Positions 8,194 through 61,510 of a stretch of 64,000 bases of DNA are shown here, one piece after another. A program made the translations under genes and the position numbers. The stretch's first letter is position 1. Every line of letters starts with the position of its first letter. The stretch covers positions 124,001-188,000 of the forward strand of contig NZ_MRYI01000003.1 in the NCBI RefSeq assembly GCF_002260525.1, read 5' to 3'. Under the pieces are notes generated by a model, which had not been told where the DNA came from, did no database searches, and saw nothing but the letters and a program-made list of their open reading frames with translations. The DNA is from Hahella sp. CCB-MM4 (GTDB taxonomy: Bacteria; Pseudomonadota; Gammaproteobacteria; Pseudomonadales; Oleiphilaceae).

Positions 8194-8658
8194 ATGTCTG
8201 TCTGGTGCCCCAGAGCCACTGTTGCAGTCATCATTCCCCAGAATGACGACCATTCCCCCAATGGAAAGTTATTGTTTGTAGAAGAACTCAGTCAGGGAAA
8301 ATCCGTCATCAACCAACCCGCAGGACATATTGAAAAGGGCGAGAGTATTCTTGAAGCAGCCCGACGGGAATCCCTCGAAGAAACAGGGTGGTCCATTGAG
8401 TTGAGCGGCTTTATAGGCATCTATACTCTACATCTACCTGAGCAGGATTTAACCTACCACCGCTACTGTTTCGTGGGCAAACCTGCACAGCAACTGACTA
8501 CGCAGCTCGACAGCGACATTATTTCCACCCACTGGCTGACTCCGGAGGAAATGATGTCTGGCAAATTCGCCCTTCGCAGCCCTTTAGTCAGAAAGTGTGT
8601 GGAGGACTATTTGGAAGGCCGGATCTATCCGCTCGATATTATCCATGAAGCCTTCTAG
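8194..8658 (+). CDS. nudJ: Nudix hydrolase NudJ (thiamine/nucleotide pyrophosphatase)
   Basis: The 154-residue protein has a complete Nudix box, GHIEKGESILEAARRES then LEETGW, which binds the catalytic divalent metal. E. coli NudJ hydrolyses nucleoside tri- and diphosphates and HMP-pyrophosphate. AAAGGAG before the ATG supports the start. It lies between rluE and mnmA as in many relatives. The last codons and the TAG stop are duplicated just downstream in a degenerate 23-bp tandem pair. Confidence 0.9.
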   Translation: MSVWCPRATVAVIIPQNDDHSPNGKLLFVEELSQGKSVINQPAGHIEKGESILEAARRESLEETGWSIELSGFIGIYTLHLPEQDLTYHRYCFVGKPAQQLTTQLDSDIISTHWLTPEEMMSGKFALRSPLVRKCVEDYLEGRIYPLDIIHEAF

Positions 8659-8686
8659 ATCTTATTCATGAATCCTTCTAAATGAA
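8641..8686. repeat. Two degenerate 23-bp tandem repeats over the nudJ stop
   Basis: Unit 1 (8641-8663) contains the last codons and TAG stop of nudJ. Unit 2 (8664-8686) repeats it with 17 of 23 identical positions and carries its own TAA. The shared core is CATGAA-N-CCTTCTA. Confidence 0.7.
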
Positions 8687-8752
8687 GAACTCCAACTCCC
8701 GCGGCGTCAGTCGGCAATTTCAATAAAACCTGCATTCTGATGCCGATACCGT

Positions 8753-8758
8753 TATAAT
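8753..8758 (+). promoter_or_regulatory. -10 element (TATAAT) upstream of mnmA
   Basis: A perfect TATAAT lies 54 bp before the chosen mnmA ATG, in GTTATAATACCGCGCC. No good -35 is visible, so this is a candidate only. Confidence 0.45.
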
Positions 8759-8812
8759 ACCGCGCCCTTTTACTAGGTATAGAAATACCAGGTATTGATA
8801 CGGTTATTTGAT

Positions 8813-10006
8813 ATGTCGCCAACACGCAAGCAGAAAGTCATCGTCGGTTTGTCCGGAGGAGTCGATTCTTCCGTGTCCGCGTACATTCTGAAGTCCCTGG
8901 GTTATGAGGTCGAAGGCCTCTTCATGAAGAACTGGGATGAAGACGATGGTACGGAATACTGCACAGCTCTGGCAGACCTTGAGGATGCAAGCAAGGTAGC
9001 CGACAGACTTGGGATTAAACTGCACACGGCCAGTTTTTCAGCAGAATATTGGGATCGGGTATTCGAGCACTTCCTTGACGAATATCGCGCCGGCCGAACG
9101 CCCAACCCGGACATCCTCTGCAACAAAGAAATCAAATTCAAAGCTTTTCTTGAATATGCACAACACTTGGGCGGAGACTTTATCGCTACAGGTCACTATG
9201 CCCAGCGCGGCCGCATAGGTAGTGAAATTGCCCTGATGAAAGGGGCCGACCCAAGCAAAGAGCAAAGCTATTTTCTTCATGCTGTTCCGGGAAATGCTGT
9301 TGCAAAAACCCTGTTTCCAGTCGGTGGCCTGCTGAAAAAAGAAATTCGCCGTATCGCGGCAGAACAAGGGTTTGCCACAGCAGACAAGAAAGACAGCACC
9401 GGTATCTGTTTCATTGGTGAACGTAAGTTTTCAGACTTTTTGAAAACCTATATCCCCGCCCAGCCTGGCAGAATTATGACTGATGAAGGCGATGAGATCG
9501 GTCGGCATCAAGGCCTCATGTATCACACCATTGGCCAGCGCCAGGGCCTGGGCATTGGGGGACTCAAGAACTACGACGACGCCCCCTGGTATGTCATAGA
9601 CAAGGATCTTGAAAACAACATTCTTTACGTTGCTCAGGGCAGCAACCACCCTCACCTGTTCCAGCAAAACCTGACGGCCAGCAAGCTTGAGTGGATTAAC
9701 GGCATCCCCGATTACGGAAAAACACCCGGAGAGTTCCGCTGCTACGCCAAGACGCGATATCGCCAGCCAGATCAGGCTTGCACCGTGTTTTGCAAAGAGG
9801 ACAAGGTGGAAGTAATTTTTGACCAACCACAACGAGCCATTACCCCGGGCCAATCCGTCGTATTTTACGACGGACTCAGGTGTCTGGGCGGCGGCGTCAT
9901 TGAAACCAGAAAGACACAGTTTAATTCCGGCTCTCTGGTTAAATCAGACAAACAGACAAACTCAGGCACGTCGGGAACCTTAGAATCCGGTGTTAATGGA
10001 GGGTAG
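8813..10006 (+). CDS. mnmA: tRNA-specific 2-thiouridylase MnmA
   Basis: This 397-residue enzyme adds sulfur to U34 of tRNAs for Lys, Glu and Gln, using ATP and sulfur delivered by the Tus relay (tusA is at 40484). The P-loop is GLSGGVDSS (12-20). The catalytic cysteines are visible: Cys103 in [12 protein letters not shown] and Cys199 in [14 protein letters not shown] at 8795 in frame is possible, but the ATG at 8813 gives the family N-terminus. The last 30 residues (Ser/Thr/Gly rich) extend beyond the conserved fold. hflD starts 2 bp after the stop. Confidence 0.95.
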
Positions 10007-10008
10007 CC

Positions 10009-10626
10009 TTGTCGGGCAATACTGAAGATCAAGTTATCGCGCTGGCTGGCGTATTTCAGGCAGCTTACCTGGTAGATGAACTCGCCAAAAAAGGAACCCT
10101 GGGCGAAGAGGCATTCAAGACCTGCCTCAACAGTCTGTTGAAAGTTGATGTCAGCAACACTATAGACGCCTTCGGCGATCGCTATGGCATTCAGGTCGGT
10201 TTACGCGAACTCATCGCCGTACTTGAGAAGCAACAAAACCGCAGCAAAACGGAAATGGTCCGTTACGCCCTCACCCTGCTTTATCTTGAAGGCAAGCTTA
10301 GAAAGCGTCCGGATCTGCTTGAGGTCATGGGCAAAAGAATCCAGCAGGTTCAGACTCAGACACTTCATTTTGAGGTAACCCACTCAAATATCGTGGGAGC
10401 ATTTGCATCGCTGTATAAAGACACCATCAGCACTTTTCCCCAGCGCATACAGGTAACGGGTGACCCCAAATATCTTCGCGTTGATGAAAATGCTGACAAA
10501 ATCCGCGCCATACTGCTGGCCGGTATCCGTGCTGCGGTACTTTGGCGCCAGGTTGGCGGCCGACGCTGGAAACTCTTGTTTATGCGCAAACAGATTCTGC
10601 AAGTGGCGAGACAGCTGGCGAATTAG
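10009..10626 (+). CDS. hflD: High frequency lysogenization protein HflD
   Basis: The 205-residue helical protein matches HflD over its length, including VIALAGVFQAAYLVDELAKKG at the start and VTHSNIVGAFASLYKDTIS in the middle. In E. coli HflD is membrane-associated and binds phage lambda CII; its normal role is unclear. It is nearly always between mnmA and purB. The start is TTG at 10009 behind GGAGGG, 2 bp after the mnmA stop, so the two are translationally coupled. Confidence 0.9.
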   Translation: MSGNTEDQVIALAGVFQAAYLVDELAKKGTLGEEAFKTCLNSLLKVDVSNTIDAFGDRYGIQVGLRELIAVLEKQQNRSKTEMVRYALTLLYLEGKLRKRPDLLEVMGKRIQQVQTQTLHFEVTHSNIVGAFASLYKDTISTFPQRIQVTGDPKYLRVDENADKIRAILLAGIRAAVLWRQVGGRRWKLLFMRKQILQVARQLAN

Positions 10627-14410: not shown

Positions 14411-15373
14411 CTAGTCCCTCGCCCTGATCTCAAGCTCTTCAGGGGCATCTGCTGTCTGAGTGATGAGACGCCGCAACCAGCGGTGATCTGAATTATTCTG
14501 CAACAATGGGCTCCAGGCCATCTTTAACTCAAAAGGAGGTATTGGAAAAGGTGGCTCTTTGATCACCAGGTTCGGGTTATCCAACATTAATTGAGCGGCC
14601 CGGGACGGTAGCGTGGCGATCAAGTCCCGTTGCTGGGACAGAAGCATCGCCACTTGATAATGACGGGTAAATACACTGATATTGCGCTTTTTATCGAGCT
14701 TCGCCAGAGCCTCATCCACCCACCCCAGGCGCTGAACATCTTTAGGATTGACGCCGACCCCCACTCCAAAGCCGGTTTTACTGACCCAAATGTGGTTAGC
14801 GTTCAGATAGGCATCCAAAGTAAAGTCATAAACCAATGGGTTATGAACACTCAACAGACAGGAAAAACTGTCCTCCCAGATGGTTCGCTGATGAAATGAT
14901 TGCGGAATCTTGTCGAAGCGGTTGATTGCCATATCCACCCGCCCCTGCTCCACGTCCAGAAACGAAACATCACTTGGCGTGAGCACATCGAGAATCACTC
15001 CCGGCGCTTCATCCCGGATACGCTTGAGCACCGCGGGAATCAGGGCACTTTCCGCATAATCGCTGGCCATAATCCTGAAAACCCGTTTGGTGGTGGCTGC
15101 ATCAAACTCTTCCCGGGGCTGGACTACCTGGTCAATCTCGGTCAGAACCGTCCGTATCAACGGCTGCAATTCCACCGCTCTAGCCGTTGCTGTCATACCT
15201 TCACTGGTGCGAACCAGAAGCGGATCCCCAAACATATCCCTTAACCGGCGCAGACCATTACTCATCGCCGGCTGGGTGATTCCCAAATGATTGGCAGCTT
15301 TGGTAACGCTTTTTTCCCTTAGCAGAACATCCAGGTAAACAAGCAGATTCAGATCAATTCGAGCAAGATTCAT
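14411..15373 (-). CDS. LysR-family transcriptional regulator
   Basis: The 320-residue protein has an N-terminal winged helix-turn-helix (LLREKSVTKAANHLGITQP, about 17-36) and a C-terminal periplasmic-binding-like effector domain. The N-terminal pattern IDLNLLVYLDVLLREKSVTKAA resembles the NodD/LeuO/PcpR branch. It sits downstream of, and codirectional with, the nucleotide-salvage genes, so control of those genes is a reasonable inference but not shown. Three direct repeats lie 76-125 bp upstream of its start. Confidence 0.85.
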   Translation of the reverse strand: MNLARIDLNLLVYLDVLLREKSVTKAANHLGITQPAMSNGLRRLRDMFGDPLLVRTSEGMTATARAVELQPLIRTVLTEIDQVVQPREEFDAATTKRVFRIMASDYAESALIPAVLKRIRDEAPGVILDVLTPSDVSFLDVEQGRVDMAINRFDKIPQSFHQRTIWEDSFSCLLSVHNPLVYDFTLDAYLNANHIWVSKTGFGVGVGVNPKDVQRLGWVDEALAKLDKKRNISVFTRHYQVAMLLSQQRDLIATLPSRAAQLMLDNPNLVIKEPPFPIPPFELKMAWSPLLQNNSDHRWLRRLITQTADAPEELEIRARD

Positions 15374-15448
15374 TCAATCAATACCAAATGGTCAGGACAT
15401 ACATTCGATAAATTATGGACCTAATACACTAACCTTGTCATTTGTTTG

Positions 15449-15498
15449 TCCAAACTATTGCTGATTTATCCAAACTATTTTGGTTAATCCAAACTATT
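15449..15498. repeat. Three TCCAAACTATT direct repeats upstream of lysR
   Basis: Exact 11-bp copies of TCCAAACTATT start at 15449, 15469 and 15488, a spacing of 20 and 19 bp (about two helical turns). They could be operator sites on one DNA face, or another member of the degenerate tandem repeats seen across this window. Confidence 0.75.
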
Positions 15499-15586
15499 GA
15501 TGTGTATTGACTAAATCTAAGACAGGAACAAGTCAGGAAGCAGCCCAGGCCACTTCCTTTATAGGAGAAAGAGAAGATCAAGCGGA

Positions 15587-21409: not shown

Positions 21410-22977
21410 CCGGCCTGCTCCTGTTCCGAGTTAGAAGATAGGTCAGAGTCAGAAGACAGGTCGGCGGTCGCACTCATCATCAAACCGAGAGTACGCTCAT
21501 CGGCATCGGCCGCAGCCACTTCACCGGTAATTCGTCCATCACACATCACAATAATCCGGTCGCTTAATGCTAGAATCTCATCCAGTTCCACAGATATCAG
21601 CAGAATAGCCCCACCGCGGTTACGCATCTTCAGGAGTTGAGTATGTATAAACTCAATCGCTCCAATATCCACACCCCGCGTGGGTTGCCCGACCAGCAAC
21701 ACTTTCGGTTCCCTGTCCAGTTCACGGGCCAGAATCAGTTTTTGCTGGTTACCACCGGAGAAATTGGCGCTTTTCAGCTTGGGGTCCTGAGGACGTACAT
21801 CGAAATCCGACATAAGTGTCGCGCAATGCTTCTCGACCAAACCAGGCTTCAGCAGACCATGCTGGTTCCACTTATCGTCCCGATGGTATCCAAGAATGCT
21901 GTTTTCACTGGCGCTCATCGGGGTCACAAGACCTACCCGATGACGATCCTCTGGAACATGAGCAATTCCGGCATCGCGAAGCTCATCAGGCCCAATGTGA
22001 GATTCCGTGGAAATTTTCAGTTTGCCATAGCAGATTGTTCCCGCATCAACCGAACGCATTCCAGCCAATGCTTCCATCAATTCTGTCTGCCCGTTTCCAG
22101 AAACGCCGGCAATTCCCACGATTTCGCCAGCTGACACTTTGAAAGAAACATTTTTCACCCGTTCCACCTGCTGGGCATCCACAACGCTAAGGCCCTCGAC
22201 CTTCAAAACGTCGTCGCCCGCAGCAGCGTCAGGCTTTTCCAACTGAGTCACCACTTTACGCCCGACCATTAGTTCGGCCAGTTCTTCCGGGTTGGTTTCA
22301 GCAGTGGATAAATTTGCCACCATCTCACCGTGGCGCATAACCGATACGTTATCCGTTATTGCCATGATTTCTTTCAATTTATGGGTGATCAGGAGAATGG
22401 TAACGCCCTGCTCTTTCAATCCTTTGAGAATCGCGAACAGATCATCGGTTTCCTGTGGGGTCAGAACGCCGGTTGGCTCATCCAGGATAAGCACCTTGGC
22501 GCCTTTATAGAGGGCTTTAAGTATCTCAACTCGTTGCTGGAGTCCGACGGGTAAATCACCAACGATGGCATCCGGGTCGACCTTCAGATTGTAATTGGTG
22601 GAGAGGTCCAATAAGACCTTCCGAGCCTTGGCCTGCCCCTGCATTAACAAGGCGCTGCCTTCGTTGCCTAGAATAATATTCTCTAAAACGGTAAATGGCT
22701 CGACCAGCATAAAGTGCTGGTGGACCATCCCTATTCCAGCGGCAATGGCAGCATGGGAATTGGGAATATCGGCAGGTTTACCGAAGACGGATATCGAACC
22801 GCTGTCGGCCTGATAAAAACCGTAGAGAATACTCATCAAAGTGGATTTACCGGCACCGTTCTCTCCAACAATACCGTGAATACTTCCTTTTACCACATTC
22901 AGACTGACGTCTTTGTTGGCCTGTACGGCACCAAAACGCTTACTGACACGGTCTAGTTCGAGTGCATAGTCAGTCAT
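21406..22977 (-). CDS. Nucleoside ABC transporter ATP-binding protein (YufO/NupO type)
   Basis: The 523-residue protein contains two ABC ATPase domains in tandem. The first has Walker A GENGAGKST (38-46) and LPVGLQQRVEILKAL with LILDEPTGVL. The second has GVSGNGQTE and SGGNQQKLILARELDREP; its Walker A is degenerate, as is usual in this family. The C-terminal tail carries DLSSDS followed by DLSSNS, encoded by an 18-bp tandem repeat. It overlaps the permease gene by 4 bp. The binding-protein gene lies 112 bp upstream. Confidence 0.92.
   Translation of the reverse strand: MTDYALELDRVSKRFGAVQANKDVSLNVVKGSIHGIVGENGAGKSTLMSILYGFYQADSGSISVFGKPADIPNSHAAIAAGIGMVHQHFMLVEPFTVLENIILGNEGSALLMQGQAKARKVLLDLSTNYNLKVDPDAIVGDLPVGLQQRVEILKALYKGAKVLILDEPTGVLTPQETDDLFAILKGLKEQGVTILLITHKLKEIMAITDNVSVMRHGEMVANLSTAETNPEELAELMVGRKVVTQLEKPDAAAGDDVLKVEGLSVVDAQQVERVKNVSFKVSAGEIVGIAGVSGNGQTELMEALAGMRSVDAGTICYGKLKISTESHIGPDELRDAGIAHVPEDRHRVGLVTPMSASENSILGYHRDDKWNQHGLLKPGLVEKHCATLMSDFDVRPQDPKLKSANFSGGNQQKLILARELDREPKVLLVGQPTRGVDIGAIEFIHTQLLKMRNRGGAILLISVELDEILALSDRIIVMCDGRITGEVAAADADERTLGLMMSATADLSSDSDLSSNSEQEQAG
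21428..21463. repeat. Two 18-bp tandem repeats in the ABC ATPase tail
   Basis: Units at 21428-21445 and 21446-21463 share GAGT-N-AGAAGA-N-AGGTC and encode the repeated hexapeptides DLSSDS and DLSSNS at the C-terminus. The unit length keeps the reading frame. Confidence 0.75.
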
Positions 22978-30960: not shown

Positions 30961-32175
30961 ATGTTAGAAGTCAAAAAATCCAATAAGTTGCAGCATGTTT
31001 GTTACGAAATTCGTGGCCAGGTGCTTGAAGAAGCCAAACGCCTGGAAGAAGAAGGCCATCGTATCCTGAAACTGAATATCGGCAACCCGGCTCCCTTCGG
31101 CTTTGATGTCCCGGAGGAAATCCAGCAGGACGTGATATACAACCTTAGCCATGCTCAGGGATATGCTGACTCCAAAGGGCTGTTTTCTGCCCGCAAGGCG
31201 GTCCAACACTACACCCAACAGTGCGGCATTGCCAATGTGGATATCGAAGATATTTATCTGGGCAACGGCGTCAGCGAACTCATTGTGATGTCAATGCAGG
31301 CTCTGCTCAACACCAATGATGAGGTTCTGATCCCTTCGCCTGACTACCCTTTGTGGACAGCCGCAGTCACCCTCTCAAGCGGACGTGCCGTTCACTATCG
31401 CTGTGATGAGCAGTCGGACTGGTTTCCGGATATTGCCGACATTGAGAGCAAGATCACCGACCGCACCCGGGCCATTGTCATTATCAACCCCAACAATCCG
31501 ACAGGTGCCGTATATAGCCGGGATCTTCTGGAACAAATTCTGGAAGTTGCCAGACGGCACAAACTTATCGTGCTGGCTGACGAAATCTACGACAAAATTC
31601 TCTACGACGGCGCTGAGCATGTCAGCCTTGCCTCTCTGGCCGATGATCTTCTGTTCCTGACTTTTAACGGCTTATCCAAGAACTACCGTGCCGCCGGATA
31701 TAGAGCGGGATGGATGATCGTCAGCGGCGCCAAACTCCGGGCAGGAGACTTTATCGAAGGCCTGACCATGCTCAGCTCCATGCGCTTGTGCTCAAATGTT
31801 CCCGCACAACTCGGAATCCAGACTGCACTGGGGGGCTATCAAAGCATCAATGATCTGGTAGCGCCCGGAGGCAGACTTTATGAGCAACGTAACACCGCCT
31901 ATGATCTGATCACCCAGATTCCCGGCATCAGTTGCGTCAAGCCCAAAGGCGCCATGTATCTGTTTCCCAAGATCGACCCGAATCATCTGAAAATCAAAAA
32001 CGATGAACTGATGGTGCTTGACCTGCTGAAACAGGAGCGTATTTTGATTGTCCAGGGATCGGCATTCAATCTACAGGACCAACAGCATTTCAGGCTGGTA
32101 TTTCTGCCAAGAGTGGATGAACTCACATCAGCCATCGAGCGCATTGAGCACTTTATGAGCGGGTACGATCAGTAA
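30961..32175 (+). CDS. alaA: Alanine/glutamate-pyruvate aminotransferase AlaA
   Basis: The 404-residue class I PLP enzyme is nearly colinear with E. coli AlaA (405). It makes alanine from pyruvate and glutamate. Lys240 in TFNGLSKNYRAAGYRAGW should hold PLP; NPNNPTGAVY and the N-terminal LKLNIGNPAPFGFD are family blocks. The ATG at 30961 matches the family start; a TTG at 30904 in frame is discounted. The last codons (GYDQ-stop) form the first unit of a five-copy 22-bp tandem repeat. Confidence 0.94.
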   Translation: MLEVKKSNKLQHVCYEIRGQVLEEAKRLEEEGHRILKLNIGNPAPFGFDVPEEIQQDVIYNLSHAQGYADSKGLFSARKAVQHYTQQCGIANVDIEDIYLGNGVSELIVMSMQALLNTNDEVLIPSPDYPLWTAAVTLSSGRAVHYRCDEQSDWFPDIADIESKITDRTRAIVIINPNNPTGAVYSRDLLEQILEVARRHKLIVLADEIYDKILYDGAEHVSLASLADDLLFLTFNGLSKNYRAAGYRAGWMIVSGAKLRAGDFIEGLTMLSSMRLCSNVPAQLGIQTALGGYQSINDLVAPGGRLYEQRNTAYDLITQIPGISCVKPKGAMYLFPKIDPNHLKIKNDELMVLDLLKQERILIVQGSAFNLQDQQHFRLVFLPRVDELTSAIERIEHFMSGYDQ

Positions 32176-32270
32176 AGTTGCTGGATACGATCAGCAAAAT
32201 AGCTGGCTATGACCAGTGAAATGGGCGGGTATGACCAGTGAAATAGGTGGACAAGATCAGTAAAGTGCCT
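32161..32270. repeat. Five degenerate 22-bp tandem repeats from the alaA stop
   Basis: Units begin at 32161, 32183, 32205, 32227 and 32249. The shared pattern is GG-N4-GA(T/C)CAG-N-(A/G)AA(A/G)T. Unit 1 encodes the end of alaA and its stop codon, and later copies lie in the gap to the next gene. There are no unique spacers, so it is not a CRISPR. Confidence 0.9.
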
Positions 32271-38633: not shown

Positions 38634-38687
38634 TTAACCAGGAATAAAGAGTTAACTAGGAATAGAGAGTTAACCAGGAATAGAGAC
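38634..38687. repeat. Three 18-bp tandem repeats just before dsbD
   Basis: Units at 38634-38651, 38652-38669 and 38670-38687 share TTAAC-N-AGGAATA-N-AGAG. Read in the dsbD frame they give LTRNKE, LTRNRE and LTRNRD. Confidence 0.85.
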
Positions 38688-42336: not shown

Positions 42337-42465
42337 TCTCGATGATCCAATATGAATGAAGACGGGGAAAACCTGTATGGCACTCCGTTGAGGTGCGGGC
42401 ATTATAATCGGTTCACCAATACATTCCATGGCCTGGCGCCTATCAATAAGCTCCAGGCCACATAC

Positions 42466-42497
42466 CAGCCATACTTCCAACCTGCCATACTTCCAAG
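42466..42497. repeat. Two 16-bp tandem repeats upstream of rlmM
   Basis: CAGCCATACTTCCAAC and CTGCCATACTTCCAAG lie in direct succession, identical at 14 of 16 positions, in the gap between the hydrolase stop and rlmM. Confidence 0.65.
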
Positions 42498-51712: not shown

Positions 51713-52506
51713 TGGTCGATGTTGCCCTGTTCCTGTCTGCGCTGCTGATTGGCCTCATGGGCAGCGGCCATTGCCTGGGGATGTGCGGAGGTATCGCCAG
51801 CGCCCACTCATTTAATCTCGACAATGACACCAGAAGCACCCCGTCCGGAGCTATAGCAACATCAGCAACATCAGGACGCCAAGGATTACTTGGCCCTCTC
51901 CTGATATTTAACCTGGGTCGCCTCACCAGCTACACAATCATAGGATTCCTTGCCGGTACAATTGGTGCTGCACTGGCCCTGAACATGACGGCGTTGATTA
52001 TTCTCCGTTCCATCGCCGGCACGCTTTTGATCATGATGGGGCTTTACGTCGGACAATGGTGGTCCGGACTCGTACATATCGAAAAACTCGGCTCAAAGCT
52101 TTGGCGATTACTGACCCCACTGTCGAACAGGCTCCGCGGTAAATCCGGCCCCGGGGCAGGTTTTTTCCTGGGGATGATCTGGGGCTGGCTGCCGTGCGGT
52201 CTGGTATACAGCGCTCTCGCCTGGGCCATGAGCTCAGCGGATTCCAATAGAGCCGCCATGCTGATGTTTGGATTTGGACTCGGCACGCTCCCCAGCATGT
52301 TGGCCGCCGGACTGTTCGCCTATCACCTCCGCCGCTGGCTCAGTCGACTATCTGTCAGGCGCGTTTTTGCCGTCGGCCTGATTATTTTTGGTATCTGGAG
52401 CCTGCCCGTCGGCTGGCCGAAACTGTTCACAAGCCAGGGAGATTCCTCCTCACACTCCCATAAGATGTCTCCTGAACAACATGCCGACGAACCCGGTAAT
52501 CACTAA
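51709..52506 (+). CDS. SafE/TauE-like cbb3-cluster membrane protein
   Basis: The 265-residue integral membrane protein has about six helices and the motif GLMGSGHCLGMCGGIASAHS near the start, with GWLPCGLVYSALAWA in the second half; this pair is typical of the UreH/DsbD-like transmembrane family found next to ccoS. A role in copper or haem handling during oxidase assembly is inferred from position. The gene overlaps ccoS by 4 bp. Its last codons run into a 15-bp tandem repeat array. Confidence 0.82.
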   Translation: MMVDVALFLSALLIGLMGSGHCLGMCGGIASAHSFNLDNDTRSTPSGAIATSATSGRQGLLGPLLIFNLGRLTSYTIIGFLAGTIGAALALNMTALIILRSIAGTLLIMMGLYVGQWWSGLVHIEKLGSKLWRLLTPLSNRLRGKSGPGAGFFLGMIWGWLPCGLVYSALAWAMSSADSNRAAMLMFGFGLGTLPSMLAAGLFAYHLRRWLSRLSVRRVFAVGLIIFGIWSLPVGWPKLFTSQGDSSSHSHKMSPEQHADEPGNH

Positions 52507-52609
52507 TCCGGTATCCATTAATCCGGTTAGTACTTATCCTGTTTCTACTGCTCCGCTATCCACTATTCAGGTAGGTACTTATCCGGTAACCACTATTCAG
52601 CTAACCATT
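52490..52609. repeat. Eight degenerate 15-bp tandem repeats from the SafE-like gene end
   Basis: Units start every 15 bp from 52490 to 52595; the consensus is close to AATCCGGTANCCACT. The first unit holds the last codons and TAA of the SafE-like gene. In another frame the array reads as NPVIT, NPVSI, NPVST, YPVST-type pentapeptides, but no gene there is convincing. Confidence 0.9.
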
Positions 52610-52679
52610 AATAGCGAGGCCCTTTCACCAGGATATTGCCAACGAGCCTGTTCTCATCACTCGACGTCCGTCTGCCACA

Positions 52680-52761: not shown

Positions 52762-54165
52762 GTGGACAACATTTACTGGAATGAACAATTAATCCGTAAA
52801 TACGATTTACAGGGTCCCCGATACACATCCTATCCAACCGCAATGGAATTTCAGCCCGGCTTCAGCCATCAGGATGTTTTTGACGCCGCCAGCGTCTCCC
52901 GGTTAACTGCCAAGCCATTGTCGCTGTATTTCCACATCCCTTTCTGTGCCAGGCTTTGTTATTACTGCGCCTGCAACAAAATCGTGACTAAACGCCGTGA
53001 ACAGGCTCAGCCTTACCTGGACCAGCTCTACAGGGAAATGGTTCTTCAAGCTGCCCTGTTTTCGAAGGATCAGGATGGAAATTCCCGCCTGGTAGAGCAA
53101 CTCCACTGGGGCGGAGGTACGCCAACATTCCTCAGCCCTGACCAAATGCGTGAACTCATGACACGCACCCGTGAGCTTTTCAGGTTGCTCCCCGATGATC
53201 AGGGTGACTACTCCATTGAAATCGATCCCCGTGAAGCGGACGACGAAACACTCACCGTTCTCCGGGAAATAGGATTCAATCGAATCAGCCTGGGAGTACA
53301 GGATTTCGATCCCAAAGTGCAGAAAGCCGTAAACCGTGTACAAAGCGAAGAACTCACGCTCCATGTCCTGACCAAAGCCCGGGAGCTGGGGTTCCGCTCA
53401 ATCAATATTGATCTGATTTACGGTCTGCCCTTCCAGACAGAATCCACTTTTGCCAGAACCGTGGACAAAATCATCCAGTTTTCACCTGACCGGCTGTCGG
53501 TGTTTAACTACGCCCATATGCCCAACCGATTCAAACCGCAACGACGAATCGATGGGGCGACACTGCCAACACCACAGCAGAAGCTGAGCATACTGCGCAA
53601 TTCGGTAGACCAGTTGATCAGGCACGACTACCGCTTCATCGGCATGGATCATTTCGCCAAGCCAGATGATGAACTGGCCATCGCCCAGTCAGAGGGCCAC
53701 CTCCACCGCAACTTCCAGGGCTATACCACTCGCGGCAACTGTGATCTGATCGCGATGGGCGTATCCAGCATCAGCATGCTGGACCGGGCTTACTATCAAA
53801 ATGTCTACGACATCCCCGGCTATAGCGACATACTTTCCCAGGGTAAATTGCCTGTACAACGGGGAGTGATGCTCAATGATGACGATGTTCTCAGGCGTGA
53901 AATCATTATGGAGCTCATTTGCAACTTCAAACTCAGCTTCAAGATGATAGAAGACCGATACAACATTTCGTTCAAGGAATACTTCAAGCCAGAACTGGCT
54001 CAATTAAAGGACATGGAAGAGGACGGTCTGGTTCAGTTTGGAACAGAAAACGGCGAGGAACTTGTTCGCATACACCCGGCGGGGCGTCTTCTCATCAGGG
54101 GGATCTGCAAAGTATTTGACCGGTATCGTGTGGAGCAGACCCAAAGCTTCTCAAGAATTATCTAA
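52762..54165 (+). CDS. hemN: Oxygen-independent coproporphyrinogen III dehydrogenase
   Basis: The 467-residue radical-SAM enzyme decarboxylates coproporphyrinogen III to protoporphyrinogen IX without oxygen. The [4Fe-4S]-SAM cysteines are Cys62, Cys66 and Cys69, with Cys71 also conserved (HIPFCARLCYYCACNK). LHWGGGTPTFL and the C-terminal HemN domain follow. The start is GTG 52762 behind GGGAGG. The Anr/FNR box upstream fits haem supply for cbb3 at low oxygen. A 21-bp repeat covers its stop codon. Confidence 0.96.
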   Translation: MDNIYWNEQLIRKYDLQGPRYTSYPTAMEFQPGFSHQDVFDAASVSRLTAKPLSLYFHIPFCARLCYYCACNKIVTKRREQAQPYLDQLYREMVLQAALFSKDQDGNSRLVEQLHWGGGTPTFLSPDQMRELMTRTRELFRLLPDDQGDYSIEIDPREADDETLTVLREIGFNRISLGVQDFDPKVQKAVNRVQSEELTLHVLTKARELGFRSINIDLIYGLPFQTESTFARTVDKIIQFSPDRLSVFNYAHMPNRFKPQRRIDGATLPTPQQKLSILRNSVDQLIRHDYRFIGMDHFAKPDDELAIAQSEGHLHRNFQGYTTRGNCDLIAMGVSSISMLDRAYYQNVYDIPGYSDILSQGKLPVQRGVMLNDDDVLRREIIMELICNFKLSFKMIEDRYNISFKEYFKPELAQLKDMEEDGLVQFGTENGEELVRIHPAGRLLIRGICKVFDRYRVEQTQSFSRII

Positions 54166-54184
54166 AGCTTTTCAAGAATTATCC
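54143..54184. repeat. Two 21-bp tandem repeats at the hemN / sensor kinase junction
   Basis: Units 54143-54163 and 54164-54184 are identical at 19 of 21 positions (core CAAGAATTATC). Unit 1 encodes the hemN C-terminus (SFSRII), and unit 2, read on minus, encodes the last residues and stop of the convergent kinase. Confidence 0.85.
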
Positions 54185-56886
54185 ACGGCGGCCTTGGCCT
54201 CTGTCAGCTCAGGCATGAGCGGCACGTCAAAGTAGAAAATGCAGCCACCTTCATTTTTATTCCGGTAGTGAATACTGCCACCATGCTTCTCCACAATGGC
54301 CTTGGATATATTCAAACCAAGGCCTGACCCTCCCTGGGTTCTGGAAGTCGATGAGTCGGCCTGGGCAAATCGCCCAAAAATCTTATCGGAAAATTCTTCC
54401 GGAATACCCGGTCCGCTGTCTATAACCTCAATACGAATATGATTCTTCTGCCTTATCGCACTGATATGCACCTCAGTATTCGGCTTGGAGAACTTCGCGG
54501 CGTTGGACATCAGATTGGTCATAACCTGAGTCAAGCGCTCATTGTCTCCCCATATCACCAGCTCATCATCAACGGCATCGAGCACAAACTGCACCCGATA
54601 GTGATCTGCATATGGCTGGTTATTACGGCAGATATCCTGCAGCCACTCAGCCACAGAAATCCTGACGCATTTTATCTTGAAGTCCACTTCGGTAATTTTC
54701 TTGAAGTCCAGAATCCGGTTGACCAGCTCCAACAACCGCTGGCTGTTACGATTCGCGATATCGAGCAGACTTTCTGATTTCTCATCCATCGCGACTTTCT
54801 GATTTCTGATTAGGCCCAATGCCCCTTTTATGGCCGTCAAAGGAGTGCGAAGCTCATGACTCACAGTAGAAATAAACTCATCTTTGATACGATCAATCTC
54901 TGCCCGTTCAGTGATGTCTCTCACCATGACCAAGTGGTAAAGCTTGTTTTCCAGTCCATAGTCAGAAATGGACAGATCAATCGCAACCTGATCCCCGTTT
55001 CGCCGGTTCCCGGTGGTTTCCATGACTCCCCCTCCAGCGCCCTCAATACTGTTCAGGACATAATGGAAATTCACTCCTTCAAGCGCTGGAATTAGATGGA
55101 CGATTTTCTCCCCCAACAACTCCTGTCCTGCGGTCAGAAATATCTCTTCTGCAGAACGATTCGCCCTGATAATCACACCATCCACATCCACCACCAGCAA
55201 CGCGTCCGGAGTATTATCCACAATAGCCTTCAGGGAGTTTTCTGAATCCCTCAGTGCCGCTGTCCGCTCTCTGATCATGACTTCAAGCGCCACGGTTCTG
55301 CCAGTGAAAAAGAGCGCCACCATTCCACTCATTACCGAGAACAATAATCCCAGAACGTAGACAAACCAAGCCGTCAGAGACAGGTGGCTGACGTAATTGT
55401 CAACCGTCGGGGTAATGACAAAAAGCCACTCTCTATCAGCGACTTTGATAGGAATCTTCCAGACCAGTTCTGAATCAAAAGCGCCCTGATCCTGACTGGT
55501 CACAGCGCGGTATTCCCCCGACCGACTGATTTGGGTTTGATACAACAGCCCTTCATCCGTATCTGAGGTATCGACTATACGGACAAAAAAACCACGGAAA
55601 TTCTGACTATCAAAGAAATGCTCCAGCAATATCCCTACTTTGATTACCGCGGTGAAATACCCATCCAAAATGTCCCCGTCACTGGAGAATTTAGGGAAGA
55701 AAACCAGTACCCCCGCCTGAGCTCCGTCATCCTGCACCAACCGGATTCTCTCAGTTAATACCGGGGCCTTGGTATCTCTAGCTTTATCAAGTGCCACACG
55801 CCTGAATGGATTTGCCAATACATTAAACCCCAGGGCCTCCTTATTCCCTTCAAAAGGCATAATGAACTGCACCGGCACGATCTCATCATGCTCCGGCGAC
55901 TCTTGCAGAGAGCCATCAATCCGCTCTCTAATACCCGTATCCACGCCATAATCCCGCTGCATCACCAATTCCACATAGGTACGTAATCGCTCATTGGCAT
56001 ATGGATTCCAGGACAGGGCCTGCAAATTGTCGTAACGCTCCAGCAGCCACCCAACCTGATCCTCAAACGTTTTCCGGGAGCTACGCTGCACAATTCCCAT
56101 ATTCCTGGCGACGGTCTCCAGCACGCCAATCTGGGCCTTCATTGTCTGCTCAAAGGTGATCACCATAGCCCTGGCTTCCGTCTCAAGTCGAAGCCGGGCA
56201 TTGTTCTCCTCTGAATTTCTAGCGTAATAGAATCCGACAGTGGCAAGAATAAATGTCAGAGCAAGTGTCAACGATACCGGCCACCGCCGGGGTTTCCACA
56301 TACTGACTGGACTCAAAGTCCACACCAGGATCAATGGTCCAAATATGGCAGTGCCGATAGAATCTCCAAGCCACCACACAGCCCAATTCTGTAACAGAGA
56401 TTCCGTTGGCATCAGCCCCGCAGTCACAAGAGACGTACATCCAACCGTGGCACTGACAAGACAACTTAGCGGCCCGGTAATGACGATAAATAGAAAAATG
56501 AGATAAAGATCAGACAGAGTGTTGGGAAACCTTCCAAATTTCATCACCAGATAACGAGCCAGCATGGCCTGAATTGCGGCACCAATCCCAATAAAGGCTA
56601 TTAGTGCTACCTGAGTGAGAGCGACGCCGCCGGAGGAGTTCTCCAGCGTCACCGTATAATTAACAAGAAAGGACCCCAACCAGATTCCAAACCCTTGCCT
56701 GTATCCCCCCATGATGACGGCAGCCAAAGCAATGCCCGAGGGTATCCAGATAGCCGTGGCGTATGCGCTGTCCGCAGCAAAGGCGAGCCCCAGGCGACCC
56801 GTAGTGAAATATCCAACGGCGGTGAGGAGTATCCACCCGTACTGAGATAGCCGCGACGAGCTGGGCCGAAACATGTCAGATCTCAT
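54172..56886 (-). CDS. MASE1-CHASE-PAS sensor histidine kinase
   Basis: The 904-residue kinase has an N-terminal MASE1 membrane sensor (about 12-210, eight helices), a CHASE domain (about 245-480; RNMGIVQRSSRKTFEDQV, WNPYANERLR), another membrane helix (about 495-520), a PAS domain (about 550-665), HisKA with His677 (STVSHELRTPLTAIKG) and HATPase (NAAKFSK, DSGPGIPEEF, GGSGLGL). There is no receiver or response regulator gene nearby, so its partner is unknown. It ends 6 bp from the convergent hemN stop. Confidence 0.88.
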   Translation of the reverse strand: MRSDMFRPSSSRLSQYGWILLTAVGYFTTGRLGLAFAADSAYATAIWIPSGIALAAVIMGGYRQGFGIWLGSFLVNYTVTLENSSGGVALTQVALIAFIGIGAAIQAMLARYLVMKFGRFPNTLSDLYLIFLFIVITGPLSCLVSATVGCTSLVTAGLMPTESLLQNWAVWWLGDSIGTAIFGPLILVWTLSPVSMWKPRRWPVSLTLALTFILATVGFYYARNSEENNARLRLETEARAMVITFEQTMKAQIGVLETVARNMGIVQRSSRKTFEDQVGWLLERYDNLQALSWNPYANERLRTYVELVMQRDYGVDTGIRERIDGSLQESPEHDEIVPVQFIMPFEGNKEALGFNVLANPFRRVALDKARDTKAPVLTERIRLVQDDGAQAGVLVFFPKFSSDGDILDGYFTAVIKVGILLEHFFDSQNFRGFFVRIVDTSDTDEGLLYQTQISRSGEYRAVTSQDQGAFDSELVWKIPIKVADREWLFVITPTVDNYVSHLSLTAWFVYVLGLLFSVMSGMVALFFTGRTVALEVMIRERTAALRDSENSLKAIVDNTPDALLVVDVDGVIIRANRSAEEIFLTAGQELLGEKIVHLIPALEGVNFHYVLNSIEGAGGGVMETTGNRRNGDQVAIDLSISDYGLENKLYHLVMVRDITERAEIDRIKDEFISTVSHELRTPLTAIKGALGLIRNQKVAMDEKSESLLDIANRNSQRLLELVNRILDFKKITEVDFKIKCVRISVAEWLQDICRNNQPYADHYRVQFVLDAVDDELVIWGDNERLTQVMTNLMSNAAKFSKPNTEVHISAIRQKNHIRIEVIDSGPGIPEEFSDKIFGRFAQADSSTSRTQGGSGLGLNISKAIVEKHGGSIHYRNKNEGGCIFYFDVPLMPELTEAKAAVDNS

Positions 56887-57202: not shown

Positions 57203-58726
57203 ATGGAACTAGATCACAACACCTGTTATTCAGCGCTGCTGAGCCGAGACACGAGATTCGACGGATTGTTTTTCGTTGGAGTATCCTCCACCGGCATATA
57301 CTGCCGCCCGGTCTGCCGTGTAAAAACGCCAAAGCAGGTAAACACACAGTTTTTCATCAGCGCGGCGGCGGCAGAAAAAGCGGGCTATCGCCCCTGCCTG
57401 CGCTGCCGCCCGGAGCTGGCCCCAGGCCTCTCCCCTCTCGACAGTGGCAACACCCTGGCAATTTCCGCCAAGGAAATGATCGACAAGGGACTACTGCAGG
57501 AACTTTCCACAGAAGAGCTGGCGGCAAAGCTGGGAATTACAGACCGGTATCTGCGCAGGATTTTCAATGAAACCTTCGGCGTCAGCCCCCAGGAATATAA
57601 TCATTCAAGACGCCTGCTGCTGGCCAGACAACTGTTGATGGACTGCAGTCTGCGCATCAGTGACATCGCACTGGCAGCCGGCTTTAACAGCCAAAGGCGT
57701 TTCAACAGCGCCTTCAAGGATGCATACCGGCAGGCGCCCTCAACTTTTAAACGCAATCCTGTGAACGGACAGGGAGACACATTCTACCTGGAGGTCGGCT
57801 ATCGGGCTCCCTTTGCCTGGCAGCAATTCCGAGACTTTCTTCAGCCCCGTATCATTCCAGGTGTTGAATGGGTGTACGAGGACGGATATCGTCGCACGCT
57901 GAGACTGGTTGACTGCAAAGGCACAATTCACTCTGGCTGGATCGACATCCGCCACCTGCCCAAGAAGCACCGATTCGGCATCACCCTGCCCCTATCCCTG
58001 CTACCTCAGTTAAGCTGGATAAAGAATCGCGTAACGCATTTTCTCGATCTGTCGAATAATCCGGTGGAAACCAACACATTTTTCAGCGATGCGCAAAACT
58101 GGATTGATGGACTGAGCAGGATTGATAGACCGAGCCGGACTGACGGACTGGGCTGGATCAACGGACTGAGAGTACCAGGCAGTTTCTCCGGATTTGAAAT
58201 CGGCGTTCGCGCCATATTGGGCCAGCAGATCAGTGTCGCAGCCGCCATTAAAAAGCTGGGGCAATTTAGTGAAGAATTTGGCTCCTCGACAGAAACACCT
58301 TTTCCCGAACTGCATACGGCATTTCCTACAGCCATCGACATGGAGCACGTAACCGTCGATTCAATCGCATCACTCGGGGTCATACGTCAAAGAGCCCAGG
58401 CCATTCTCCTCCTGGCTGCTCACAGCAGGCAGGATCCCATGTTTCTGGAACCGGGTATCAATATCGACAACCAGATTCAGCAGCTCCTTGAGGTCAAAGG
58501 AATCGGCGAATGGACTGCACAATACATTGCCATGCGCGGATTGGGCTGGACCGACGCCTTCCCGGCAGCAGACGTCGGGGTTCTTAAAGCATTGGCAATA
58601 TTCAGAGACCAGCAGATCAAAGCCACCGAGGCGAAGGAAATTGCCCGACAGTGGCGCCCTTGGCGCAGTTACATCACGATGCACTTCTGGAACCTCCTGG
58701 CATCAGAAAGCAGTAAATCTTATTAA
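57203..58726 (+). CDS. Ada regulatory domain fused to AlkA DNA glycosylase
   Basis: The 507-residue protein joins an Ada N-terminal domain (about 5-75; zinc and methyl-acceptor cysteines in GIYCRPVC and CLRCRPE), an AraC-type helix-turn-helix (about 95-185; ISDIALAAGFNSQRRFN) and an AlkA half (about 190-505) with FEIGVRAILGQQISVAAA and the HhH-GPD segment LEVKGIGEWTAQYIAMRGL with catalytic Asp in AFPAADVG. It should sense methyl damage and excise alkylated bases. Residues about 300-323 are a repeat insert of four hexapeptides. ogt follows after 25 bp. Confidence 0.93.
   Translation: MELDHNTCYSALLSRDTRFDGLFFVGVSSTGIYCRPVCRVKTPKQVNTQFFISAAAAEKAGYRPCLRCRPELAPGLSPLDSGNTLAISAKEMIDKGLLQELSTEELAAKLGITDRYLRRIFNETFGVSPQEYNHSRRLLLARQLLMDCSLRISDIALAAGFNSQRRFNSAFKDAYRQAPSTFKRNPVNGQGDTFYLEVGYRAPFAWQQFRDFLQPRIIPGVEWVYEDGYRRTLRLVDCKGTIHSGWIDIRHLPKKHRFGITLPLSLLPQLSWIKNRVTHFLDLSNNPVETNTFFSDAQNWIDGLSRIDRPSRTDGLGWINGLRVPGSFSGFEIGVRAILGQQISVAAAIKKLGQFSEEFGSSTETPFPELHTAFPTAIDMEHVTVDSIASLGVIRQRAQAILLLAAHSRQDPMFLEPGINIDNQIQQLLEVKGIGEWTAQYIAMRGLGWTDAFPAADVGVLKALAIFRDQQIKATEAKEIARQWRPWRSYITMHFWNLLASESSKSY
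58100..58171. repeat. Four in-frame 18-bp repeats inside ada-alkA
   Basis: Units begin at 58100, 58118, 58136 and 58154 and encode WIDGLS, RIDRPS, RTDGLG and WINGLR. They lie just before the AlkA core, in a loop position. Confidence 0.85.
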
Positions 58727-58751: not shown

Positions 58752-59282
58752 ATGACAGAATTATCGAACCAACAAACCATCCTGTATCAGGATATCGATT
58801 CGCCTCTGGGCACCATCAGATTGACGACAAACGGGAATGGCCTGACCGGCTGTTATTTTCACGGCCAGAAATACTTCCCGGAACTGTCGGCACGTTGGCA
58901 ACCCGGCAGTCATGAGGTATTGGAGCAATCCCATAGTTGGCTGCTTCGCTATTTCCATAGAGAAAACAACGCAGATTTCCCCCCGGTGCAGGAGCTGGTT
59001 TTGACTCCTCAAGGCACGGAATTTCAGAAGCGGGTTTGGCAGGTATTACTACGCATTCAGCCTGGAAACACCAGAAGTTATAGTGATTTGGCAATGGAGT
59101 TGAATCACCCCAATGCAACTCGGGCGGTGGCTGCCGCCGTTGGTAGAAATCCCTTATCCATTATCATTCCCTGCCACCGCGTGATAGGGAAGAATCTCTC
59201 ACTTACAGGCTATGCGGGAGGGCTGGACCGAAAACAAGCCCTACTGACTCTGGAAGGCGCACTACCTGAACGCCTGATTTGA
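58752..59282 (+). CDS. ogt: Methylated-DNA--protein cysteine methyltransferase
   Basis: The 176-residue protein transfers the methyl group from O6-methylguanine in DNA to its own cysteine, in NPLSIIIPCHRVIGKN (the PCHRV motif). TEFQKRVWQVLLRIQPGNTRSY is the DNA-binding helix-turn-helix block. It starts at ATG 58752, 25 bp after the Ada-AlkA stop, so the two form a small alkylation-repair operon. Its stop codon starts a 19-bp tandem repeat series. Confidence 0.94.
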   Translation: MTELSNQQTILYQDIDSPLGTIRLTTNGNGLTGCYFHGQKYFPELSARWQPGSHEVLEQSHSWLLRYFHRENNADFPPVQELVLTPQGTEFQKRVWQVLLRIQPGNTRSYSDLAMELNHPNATRAVAAAVGRNPLSIIIPCHRVIGKNLSLTGYAGGLDRKQALLTLEGALPERLI

Positions 59283-59351
59283 TTCGGACCCCTTTTCTTG
59301 AATTGGATCTCATTACTTGATTTGGATCCCTTTATTTGATCCGAATCCGAC
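59279..59351. repeat. Degenerate 19-bp tandem repeats from the ogt stop
   Basis: Units start at 59279, 59298, 59317 and (partial) 59336, each beginning TTGA and containing GGA(T/C)C-like sequence. The TGA stop of ogt lies in unit 1. Confidence 0.85.
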
Positions 59352-60353: not shown

Positions 60354-60396
60354 CCTCTTATCTCTTATCCTCTTATCCTCTTATCTCTGATCCTCA
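60354..60396. repeat. Short CCTCTTAT-type repeats before the ars promoter
   Basis: Five or six degenerate 7-8 bp units of CCTCTTAT or CTCTTAT/CTCTGAT lie in tandem just upstream of the arsR -35. Confidence 0.7.
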
Positions 60397-60406: not shown

Positions 60407-60464
60407 TTGAACTTTACATATCTCAGTGCTATATATGGAATACCATATATATGGAGCTCCATAT
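60407..60464 (+). promoter_or_regulatory. ars promoter with two ArsR-type dyads
   Basis: TTGAAC (60407-60412), a 17-bp spacer and TATATA (60430-60435) form the promoter. The dyad ATATATGG-AATA-CCATATAT (60431-60450) overlaps the -10. A second, ATATGGAGCTCCATAT (60449-60464), covers the ribosome site and start codon of arsR. ArsR should bind here and leave on arsenite. Confidence 0.8.
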
Positions 60465-60837
60465 GAACCCTGTCGATCTGTTTAAGACCCTGGCGGATGA
60501 CACCCGCTTAAAAACCATCTGCCTGATTGTGCTCAGAGGAGAGCTCTGCGTGTGTGACCTGGTGTCCGCCCTGAGTCTCAGCCAACCGAAAATTTCCCGG
60601 CACCTGGCACAACTCAAAGCAACAGGTGTATTGCTGGACAGGAAGCAAAAGCAATGGGTGTACTATCGCCTTAACCCTGACATTCCTGCATGGTTTGACC
60701 AGGTATTGAAACTCACTGTGGCAGGCAACGAAGCATTGATCAGTGACGCCAGAAGAAATTTATCCGGCAATAGCTGTTGTGACGAAGAGACAGCAGAAAC
60801 ACTCACAGGGATAGCCCCCAATACATGCCAGGCATAA
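60463..60837 (+). CDS. arsR: Arsenite-responsive repressor ArsR
   Basis: The 124-residue ArsR/SmtB repressor has a winged helix-turn-helix with the arsenite motif GELCVCDLVSALSLSQPKISRHL; the Cys pair in ELCVC binds As(III). C-terminal Cys residues (NSCCDEE, NTCQA) may add contacts. I start it at ATG 60463, with GGAG six bases before; an ATG at 60451 in frame lacks a site. It represses its own promoter and, by inference, the downstream arsenic genes. Confidence 0.93.
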   Translation: MNPVDLFKTLADDTRLKTICLIVLRGELCVCDLVSALSLSQPKISRHLAQLKATGVLLDRKQKQWVYYRLNPDIPAWFDQVLKLTVAGNEALISDARRNLSGNSCCDEETAETLTGIAPNTCQA

Positions 60838-60921
60838 ACATCACACAGGTATCGCCTTGAATCTTGATACAACCAAGCATAGTTAGCCAAGACTTCGACC
60901 GTTTCCCCATCAACAACAGAC

Positions 60922-60943
60922 TATATTCGATATTCCGAATATA
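60922..60943 (+). promoter_or_regulatory. 8-6-8 dyad upstream of the ArsI/CadI-like gene
   Basis: TATATTCG-ATATTC-CGAATATA is a perfect dyad ending 11 bp before the VOC gene start and just before its AGGAG site. It may be a second ArsR operator, so this gene may be controlled apart from arsR. Confidence 0.7.
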
Positions 60944-60954
60944 CAGGAGACCAA

Positions 60955-61431
60955 ATGAAACGCTTGCACATCCATCTCAACGTCAAAGATCTGGAAAACA
61001 GCATTCAATTCTATAACCGGCTGTTTGCTGTTGAACCCACTCTGGTTAAAGACGATTACGCCAAATGGATGCTTGATGATCCGCGAGTCAACTTTGCCAT
61101 TTCTACTCGAAGCCGAAAATCAGGTCTGGATCACCTTGGCCTACAGGCAGAGTCAGAGGGCGAGTTGGAACAAATTCACGAGGCCATGCGCCATGCGGAT
61201 CAACCTGTTGTTAACGAACCGGGCGCCACCTGTTGCTATGCCCGCTCCAACAAGCATTGGACGGTGGATCCTGATGGCGTGGCATGGGAAGGCTTTCATA
61301 GCCTTGAAAGCATTCCGACGTATGGCAAAGAAGAACCCTCCGCAGAAAAGGAAGATCTTCACGAATCTGGAGACAAAGCAGCCTGCTGCATCAACAAAAT
61401 CAAGCCGGAATCAGCCGGCCGCTGCTGTTAA
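60955..61431 (+). CDS. ArsI/CadI-family VOC (glyoxalase-fold) protein
   Basis: The 158-residue protein has the VOC fold, starting MKRLHIHLNVKDLENSIQFYNRLF. GATCCYARSNKHWTVDPDGVAWEGF carries the adjacent Cys pair that binds trivalent organoarsenicals in ArsI and the Glu that binds Fe(II). ArsI breaks the C-As bond of methylarsenite; CadI relatives are metal-induced with unclear activity. The tail adds two more CC pairs (AACCINK and the final GRCC). Its own dyad and AGGAG precede it. It lies between arsR and the ArsJ-type GAPDH. Confidence 0.83.
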   Translation: MKRLHIHLNVKDLENSIQFYNRLFAVEPTLVKDDYAKWMLDDPRVNFAISTRSRKSGLDHLGLQAESEGELEQIHEAMRHADQPVVNEPGATCCYARSNKHWTVDPDGVAWEGFHSLESIPTYGKEEPSAEKEDLHESGDKAACCINKIKPESAGRCC

Positions 61432-61456
61432 ACGCATAGAACCGGCATTAGAACAA

Positions 61457-61510
61457 TCTATGCTGACAGAGAATTCTATGCCGACAGAGAAATCTATGGG
61501 GACAGAGACA
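61457..61510. repeat. Three 18-bp tandem repeats after the ArsI/CadI-like gene
   Basis: Units at 61457, 61475 and 61493 share TCTATG-N3-GACAGAGA. The last one is half of an 11-bp hairpin. Confidence 0.85.

Follow-up and report, generated by a model that had tools for sequence, protein, structure and literature searches.

The 64,000-nucleotide stretch of the genome of the marine bacterium Hahella sp. CCB-MM4 analysed here (contig NZ_MRYI01000003.1, positions 124,001 to 188,000; G000:C85:124001-188000 in our coding; hereafter the window) raises the question of why about a dozen short tandem repeats, each built from a different unit, lie among its genes, several of them across stop codons. The answer that we favour, with a probability of about 0.72, is that microhomology-independent tandem duplication has become commoner in this lineage, as a neutral process, and that the arrays have then grown, decayed and been filtered by selection. 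On this view, they exemplify in nature a type of mutation that is poorly understood, and are not a new genetic element.

Arrays were called with Tandem Repeats Finder (TRF) at a score of at least 50, and the window was also scanned at score 30. TRF returned 12 arrays in the window, and 20 dinucleotide shuffles of it gave 4 arrays in total, a mean of 0.2 per window; the shuffled control proposed in the first-pass annotation, which had been made from the sequence alone, thus separates clearly from the real sequence. Of the dozen-odd repeat places listed there, 12 of 13 were matched by TRF, but the two-copy repeat of 15 bp at 28334 was absent even at score 30. The genome (G000, 6.66 Mb) was sampled as the window plus 55 of 60 further stretches, 1.164 Mb with 957 genes called by a home-made gene caller; five contigs shorter than 10 kb were dropped from the 60 stretches of G000, as were two short ones among the 20 taken from G006, the nearest relative compared. 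This sample held 152 arrays (1.31 per 10 kb, approximately one per 7.7 kb), and the window was not clearly denser than the rest of it (12 arrays vs approximately 8 expected, p = 0.12).

The density of arrays was then compared among relatives. The Hahella genomes are coded G000 to G006, G001 to G005 being the other, low-density members, and G007 to G024 are further genomes of the family, of which G008 and G024 belong to two other genera; the samples of these further genomes were of 40-80 kb each. AlaA of G006 is 96% identical to that of the window, most of which is colinear with G006 in blocks of 69-83% DNA identity, and the best named relative by alaA is Hahella sp. HN01 (88%). Counting all arrays, the density was 0.46 per 10 kb in G006, 0.25 in G001 and 0.30 in G003, and 79 named gammaproteobacterial loci gave 0.54 per 10 kb over all periods. 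The noncoding density, defined as the number of 14-25 bp arrays lying at least partly outside coding sequence for every 10 kb of noncoding DNA, was 5.59 in G000, 1.85 in G006, 1.04 in G003 and 0 in G001, G002, G004 and G005. It was 0.97 in 50 named gammaproteobacteria (14 arrays in 143.9 kb), and Escherichia coli had 0 noncoding arrays in 23 kb and one array in 150 kb overall. The noncoding rate ratio of G000 was 21.7 relative to G001-G005 (2 arrays), 3.0 relative to G006 and 5.7 relative to the 50 genomes.

Elsewhere in the family, the noncoding density looked high in G008 (11.2, 14 arrays) and G024 (6.6, 4 arrays), and the value of 4.7 for G009 rests on 2 arrays. The sampled congeners of G008 (G022) and G024 (G012) had noncoding densities of 0 and 2.1, respectively, and it is possible that the phenomenon recurred independently in these two apparently array-rich genomes. 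Two loci from high-GC (guanine-plus-cytosine) metagenome-assembled genomes, L033 and L027, carry 4 and 3 arrays of 14-25 bp, nearly all in called genes; these are probably a different class.

Unit sizes in G000 are mostly 15-23 bp, with 18, 15 and 16 bp the commonest. Perfect tandem copies of 15-26 bp (two full units) numbered 26 in the 1.164 Mb, compared with 2 in 749 kb of G001, G003 and G006 together and 4 in 1.41 Mb of gammaproteobacterial sequence, and perfect duplications of 12-14 bp were not raised (2 in G000 vs 9 in the gammaproteobacteria). With exactly one mismatch, G000 had 0, 2, 9, 10, 3 and 18 rows at periods of 13, 14, 15, 16, 17 and 18 bp, respectively, 17 at 19-25 bp and 1 at 26-40 bp; one shuffle of the sample gave none at periods of 13 bp or more. 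The step in the counts between 14 and 15 bp is not a detection limit. The low-rate Hahella genomes carry a few duplications of the same sizes (15-18 bp, 11 in 949 kb).

Units of different loci have no long stretch in common, in keeping with the claim made from the window: a single pair out of 4851 shares more than 9 bp in the G000 sample, and no shared unit family or long motif was found there by shared substrings. A width-6 expectation-maximisation motif run scored 48.6 compared with 24.8-33.8 in six nulls, a weak T-rich signal that we discounted, the run having had 40 restarts and the nulls 12. A hairpin-driven origin was rejected as well: shuffling the units did not lower their folding potential, which is below that of the intergenic background.

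Slippage is a textbook source of tandem repeats, and local template slippage was suggested in the first-pass annotation; the form weighed here is replication slippage between existing short direct repeats. If slippage between short repeats founded a duplication, a perfect two-copy array should match past one period by the length of that repeat. In eight perfect two-copy arrays (six from G000, one each from G008 and G024), the extra match was 0, 0, 0, 1, 1, 1, 2 and 2 bp (mean 0.88), and none reached 3 bp. Simulated blunt duplication gave a mean of 0.72, and simulated 3-bp homology a mean of 3.64 and never less than 3. Rows lying over TRF arrays with at least 2.4 copies of the same period, or with an extra match of at least 0.4 period, were left out, and the latter rule was applied to the simulation too. 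Two of ten perfect rows were set aside: L184:475, which lies within a 40-bp array and has an extra match of 7, and L186:9014, where the apparent 18-bp unit is a doubled 9-bp one; all ten together have a mean extra match of 1.5. For the eight perfect two-copy arrays, an obligatory 3-bp homology is excluded and one of 1-2 bp is possible; since these arrays lack microhomology of at least 3 bp, simple slippage is not supported for the founding duplication. The normal level of 12-14 bp units relative to other genomes also speaks against it. Slippage is plausible for later growth from 2 to 8 copies, and the less perfect arrays exceed the extra match of blunt duplication somewhat, but as the founding step we consider it improbable.

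The history of the arrays was followed at the 16 of 152 places, 12 in the window and 4 elsewhere, whose flanks are colinear with sampled G006 sequence. At 15 of these 16 places, no repeat with a similar period was found in G006; at the 16th (60354), the G006 hit was put down to the conserved 60430 repeat, and the series itself is missing from the alignment. By eye, a single recognisable copy, in the position of the first unit, is present in G006 for the nudJ-like gene, the alaA-like gene, the gene at 51709, hemN and the array at 15445. Among 128 arrays of 14-25 bp, copy numbers from 2 to 8 were represented by 63, 34, 21, 6, 2, 1 and 1 arrays, two- or three-copy arrays making up 97 of the 128, and this roughly geometric series is as stepwise growth would give. 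The earlier proposal of one shared process, acting at differing sequences and often in this lineage, with decay afterwards, is supported.

Placement relative to genes was examined for all 152 arrays of the sample, of which 28 overlap a stop codon, 5 overlap a start codon, 84 are intergenic and 35 lie in coding sequence. Stop overlap accounted for 28 of the 117 arrays outside coding sequence (23.9%), compared with 22.1% by random placement at positions outside wholly coding sequence (p = 0.66). Stop overlap is thus at the level expected by chance outside wholly coding sequence, and a link to stop codons is not supported: the enrichment at gene ends suggested by the window does not hold in the 1.164-Mb sample, this part of the first-pass proposal fails under the refuting condition set there, and a stop-codon-targeted element was rejected. 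Start codons, by the same measure, are avoided (4.3% vs 18.5%, p = 8e-6). Periods divisible by 3 were found in 34 of 35 arrays within coding sequence, compared with 49 of 117 outside it. When the arrays outside coding sequence were assigned to gaps (111 of 117 could be placed), the density per 10 kb was 11.4 in convergent, 7.5 in codirectional and 4.6 in divergent gaps, and only 5 of 72 arrays in codirectional gaps lay in the fifth nearest the start. The first unit holds the stop in 27 of 31 array-stop pairs (stop ending within 1.1 units), presumably because duplication of a unit that spans a stop leaves the old coding end in the upstream copy. The placement pattern left after the stop test is one of tolerance, copies being least harmful near gene ends. 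The warning for annotators is that gene-end repeats in this genome point, on present evidence, to tolerance and not to regulation.

A functional reading was weighed against these data, in which the arrays would be constant-size, variable-sequence satellites that bind a nucleoid protein or give rise to small RNAs, as proposed for Bacillus repeats of 20-21 and 52 nt. The size window, the differing sequences, the species specificity and the short CTA/TAG motif resemble that class as the available text of PMC8161180 describes it. However, the sizes here spread across 15-23 bp, half of the arrays have two copies (63/128), the sister genome G006 yielded none of the 16 arrays that could be compared, and placement tracks tolerance. 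We regard function as very improbable.

Collectively, the reading that we prefer is tandem duplication at a raised rate, neutral in its effects. A single-copy stretch of approximately 15-23 bp would be duplicated head-to-tail at many unrelated sites, with no need for terminal direct repeats of 3 bp or more. Some duplications would add copies stepwise, point mutation would erode the arrays, and selection would purge those that shift a reading frame or disturb a start or promoter. The survivors would be intergenic, densest in convergent gaps, or would span stops, their first unit preserving the ancestral end of the coding sequence, or would sit in frame within genes. In this scheme we infer the neutrality, the stepwise growth and the molecular cause; the sample itself shows the excess over relatives, the size window, the lack of long common sequence, the absence from G006 at the 16 comparable places, the placement pattern and frame-keeping, and the lack of 3-bp microhomology in perfect two-copy arrays.

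Several points weigh against this reading. Rows with one and two mismatches had mean extra matches of 1.48 and 1.96, compared with 0.73 and 0.89 for blunt duplication and approximately 3.6 for 3-bp homology, and the one-mismatch rows recount some perfect arrays and are not independent of them; homology of 1-2 bp, more in some cases, or a mixture is possible. At period 12, there were 14 one-mismatch rows compared with 4 in the shuffle, but 26 in the gammaproteobacteria, so this size is not raised. Unit pairs sharing at least 6 bp numbered 780 of 4851, compared with 611 in one background draw, and CTA/TAG occurs in 66 of 117 arrays outside coding sequence, compared with 40 expected from the intergenic background. 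Neither the shared 6-bp words nor the CTA/TAG excess is predicted by pure randomness unless the seeds differ in make-up, and the latter may reflect a preference of the process or seeds in unconstrained DNA. The evidence covers 1.164 of 6.66 Mb with genes from a home-made caller, the rate is deduced from standing arrays and not from observed mutations, and no causal gene was found among the candidates searched.

Candidate enzymes were also considered. The cause would most likely be breaking and rejoining, or nicking and filling, by a DNA enzyme with altered behaviour, for which topoisomerase I is the best precedent by analogy. In the available text of PMC6954433 (Bachar et al.), every galK insertion caused by the E. 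coli topA R168C allele was a head-to-tail tandem duplication that arose de novo, measured 2-19 bp and did not depend on repeats already present, and the authors name repair of adjacent nicks as one possibility. As a special case of raised tandem duplication, an altered topoisomerase I or a partner could carry out abortive nicking or strand passage, with paired nicks 15-23 nt apart being filled and sealed. The lack of 3-bp microhomology in the perfect two-copy arrays matches such an origin. However, TopA of G000 is full-length and has a normal score (820 bits, open frame of 884 amino acids), R168 is given in the same text as conserved in all 1750 homologues, and the R168C duplications are shorter than the arrays here. 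It seems possible, although doubtful, that topoisomerase I is responsible. G006 carries a second TopA-like protein (G006:C102:53496-55109, open frame of 706 amino acids), which scores 478 bits, above the cut-off of the family, and may belong to a mobile element. TopB was rejected: no second type IA match was found in G000 or in the low-density genomes G001, G002, G004 and G005, and no pattern emerged.

Loss of the SbcCD nuclease might instead let duplications accumulate. SbcD exceeds the cut-off in all five low-density genomes, G001-G005, but in neither G000 nor G006, SbcC follows this distribution (below cut-off in G003), and neither subunit was found in the high-density G008; the absence in G000 and G006 may be a single loss. 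However, several family members in which SbcD is not over the cut-off (G007, G013-G017 and G020-G022) have few arrays, and G024, which looks high, has SbcD. In the 50 named genomes, arrays per 10 kb were 0.35 in the 32 with SbcD, 0.24 in the 6 with a weak SbcD-like match and 0.34 in the 12 without, and the noncoding densities (1.26, 0 and 0.38, respectively) run opposite to the prediction. We judge SbcCD loss a slim prospect. Canonical end joining by Ku and LigD of staggered breaks with fill-in would yield homology-free duplications, but Ku was not found in G000 or G001-G006 and was detected in 2 of the 38 genomes searched, which, at the sensitivity of the search, makes an origin through canonical Ku extremely unlikely.

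Other candidates were rejected. The 5' nuclease domain of PolA is present in an open frame in G000, as is Exonuclease I; Piwi/Argonaute proteins were found in none of the 38 genomes, and reverse transcriptases showed no clear pattern with density. An ATP-dependent DNA ligase follows density within Hahella, being present in G000 (G000:C74:18158-18667), G006 (G006:C113:42909-43382; both matches weak but over the cut-off) and G003 and not found in G001, G002, G004 and G005. As a cause it was not adopted, since the search gave no match in G024 or G009, and since the ligase is present in G007, G015 and G020, which have 0 arrays outside coding sequence in 40 kb each.

Tentatively, and with clearly less than even confidence, some lineages may be natural 'duplicators', in which a heritable, patchy change in a break-and-rejoin enzyme would produce microhomology-independent duplications of 15-23 bp without Ku. 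If this is true, hundreds of minisatellites would be seeded per genome, the size window would be the footprint of an enzyme or complex, and the differences between lineages would allow the gene to be mapped. The many fresh two-copy duplications, the narrow size window and the low-rate sisters offer a natural comparison for mapping the cause. According to the available text of PMC6954433, the first origin of tandem repeats from non-repeated DNA is unknown.

The arrays of the window, on its plus strand unless stated otherwise, illustrate these placements. Three begin in the last codons or at the stop of a gene: 22 bp x 4.6 at 32164..32264, within the final codons of the alaA-like gene, whose stop is at 32175; 15 bp x 8 at 52493..52612, at stop 52506 of gene 51709-52506; and 19 bp x 3.3 at 59279..59340, at ogt stop 59282. 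G006 has one copy of the first and one unit of the second, by eye. The nudix (nudJ-like) gene 8194-8658 has its stop where the first unit of the array at 8635..8680 (23 bp x 2.0) ends, again with one copy in G006 by eye. In the gap of G006:C137 that matches window 8659-8812, G006 has its own 17-bp two-copy repeat (TTTTCAGTGTCCGGG..., by eye), which follows the nudJ-like gene in the same gap and differs from the array of the window. At 54143..54183 (21 bp x 2.0), hemN stop 54165 lies at the joint of units 1 and 2, the array also overlaps the end of the convergent gene 54172-56874, and G006 has the first unit alone by eye. The stops fall in the first unit or across its end, reaching 1 base into the second unit for the nudJ-like gene and 2 for hemN. 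Of six genes said to have their stop in the first unit, these five do overlap an array at the stop, whereas the hybrid kinase case depends on the unsupported repeat at 28334. HemN, RlmM and Ogt were over the NCBIfam cut-off; the nudix, alanine-aminotransferase-like, BarA-like hybrid kinase, ABC ATPase and Ada/AlkA-like genes were below it, and gene 51709-52506, earlier called SafE-like, had no NCBIfam match at 1e-5.

The arrays inside coding sequence had been described as having 18-bp units that keep frame. Frame-keeping was found, but just two of the four 18-bp arrays are inside called genes: 18 bp x 1.9 at 21428..21462 (minus strand), in frame towards the C-terminal end of an ABC transporter ATPase gene (21406-22977; G006 is 18 bp shorter), and 18 bp x 3.9 at 58101..58170, in frame within the Ada/AlkA-like gene 57203-58726 and not found in G006. 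A third (18 bp x 2.9, 38634..38686) lies just upstream of the called start at 38697 of gene 38697-40439, although an ATG at 38625 would place it in frame, and the fourth (18 bp x 3.0, 61455..61508) is intergenic, 24 bp past stop 61431, and was not found in G006. The third unit of this last array deviates from its siblings where it is paired with a downstream inverted arm; the hairpin arms, TATGGGGACAGA / TCTGTCCCCATA, lie at 61495-61506 and 61515-61526, which suggests templated correction between the arms in the region 61491-61526.

The remaining arrays are intergenic. The array of 19-20 bp x 2.8 at 15445..15499, to which no strand is assigned, sits in the gap between two genes of the minus strand, where it follows the stop of 15628-17274 and precedes start 15373 of 14411-15373, and G006 has one copy by eye. 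On the minus strand, 16 bp x 2.1 at 42464..42496 lies between a minus-strand gene ending at 42523 and rlmM (41236-42336, minus). The 7-8 bp series at 60354..60395 (CCTCTTAT, x 5.5) has a shorter unit than the main class and is possibly a different thing. Downstream, at 60430-60464, a tandem palindromic TATATATGGAATACCATATATATGGAGCTCCATAT precedes an open reading frame; a similar repeat (16 bp x 2.2) is retained in G006, in contrast to the other arrays, so that it looks like a conserved operator.

The arrays were finally compared with known systems. Like bacterial minisatellites and variable-number tandem-repeat (VNTR) loci, they are short tandem arrays with locus-specific units and diverged copies. 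Such loci, used in multiple-locus VNTR analysis (MLVA) typing, are usually described as scattered, whereas here there is approximately one array per 7.7 kb of sampled genome; unlike slipped-strand minisatellites, the perfect two-copy arrays show no flanking direct repeats of 3 bp or more at the founding step. Among papers naming Hahella and tandem repeats, none concerns such arrays by its title and the start of its abstract, which is weak evidence, as subscription papers lie mostly outside the coverage. The earlier remark that no named element resembles these arrays is fair, but close descriptions exist in the available texts of PMC8161180 and PMC6954433. With the topA R168C mutator, the perfect two-copy arrays (extra match 0-2 bp) share short head-to-tail duplication independent of existing repeats; that system, as far as its available text goes, concerns a laboratory-evolution allele acting on E. 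coli galK with 2-19 bp, and the present one a natural lineage with mostly 15-23 bp.

Subirana and Messeguer (PMC8161180 and PMC6749651) report bacterial tandem repeats whose size is constant while their sequence varies. The size is 20-23 nt in individual species from many groups and 52 nt in Firmicutes, and the authors suggest that it is under selection. As there, the arrays of Hahella are many, differing, species-specific and mostly noncoding, with a narrow size range and a patchy distribution among relatives. The described repeats have, in contrast, one constant size, 20-21 (20-23) or 52 nt, whereas sizes here spread over 15-23 bp; they are counted from at least four repeats, whereas the present arrays mostly have 2-3 copies and the founding step is visible. 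Their species also hold families of related arrays (PMC8161180), of which none was seen in the G000 sample, and a characteristic short sequence marks most of their arrays (PMC8161180), compared with a modest CTA/TAG presence here (66 of 117, 40 expected). The present arrays may represent an earlier, rawer stage of constant-size repeats, and size classes of that kind could stem from the way in which duplications arise, not from a function that they serve.

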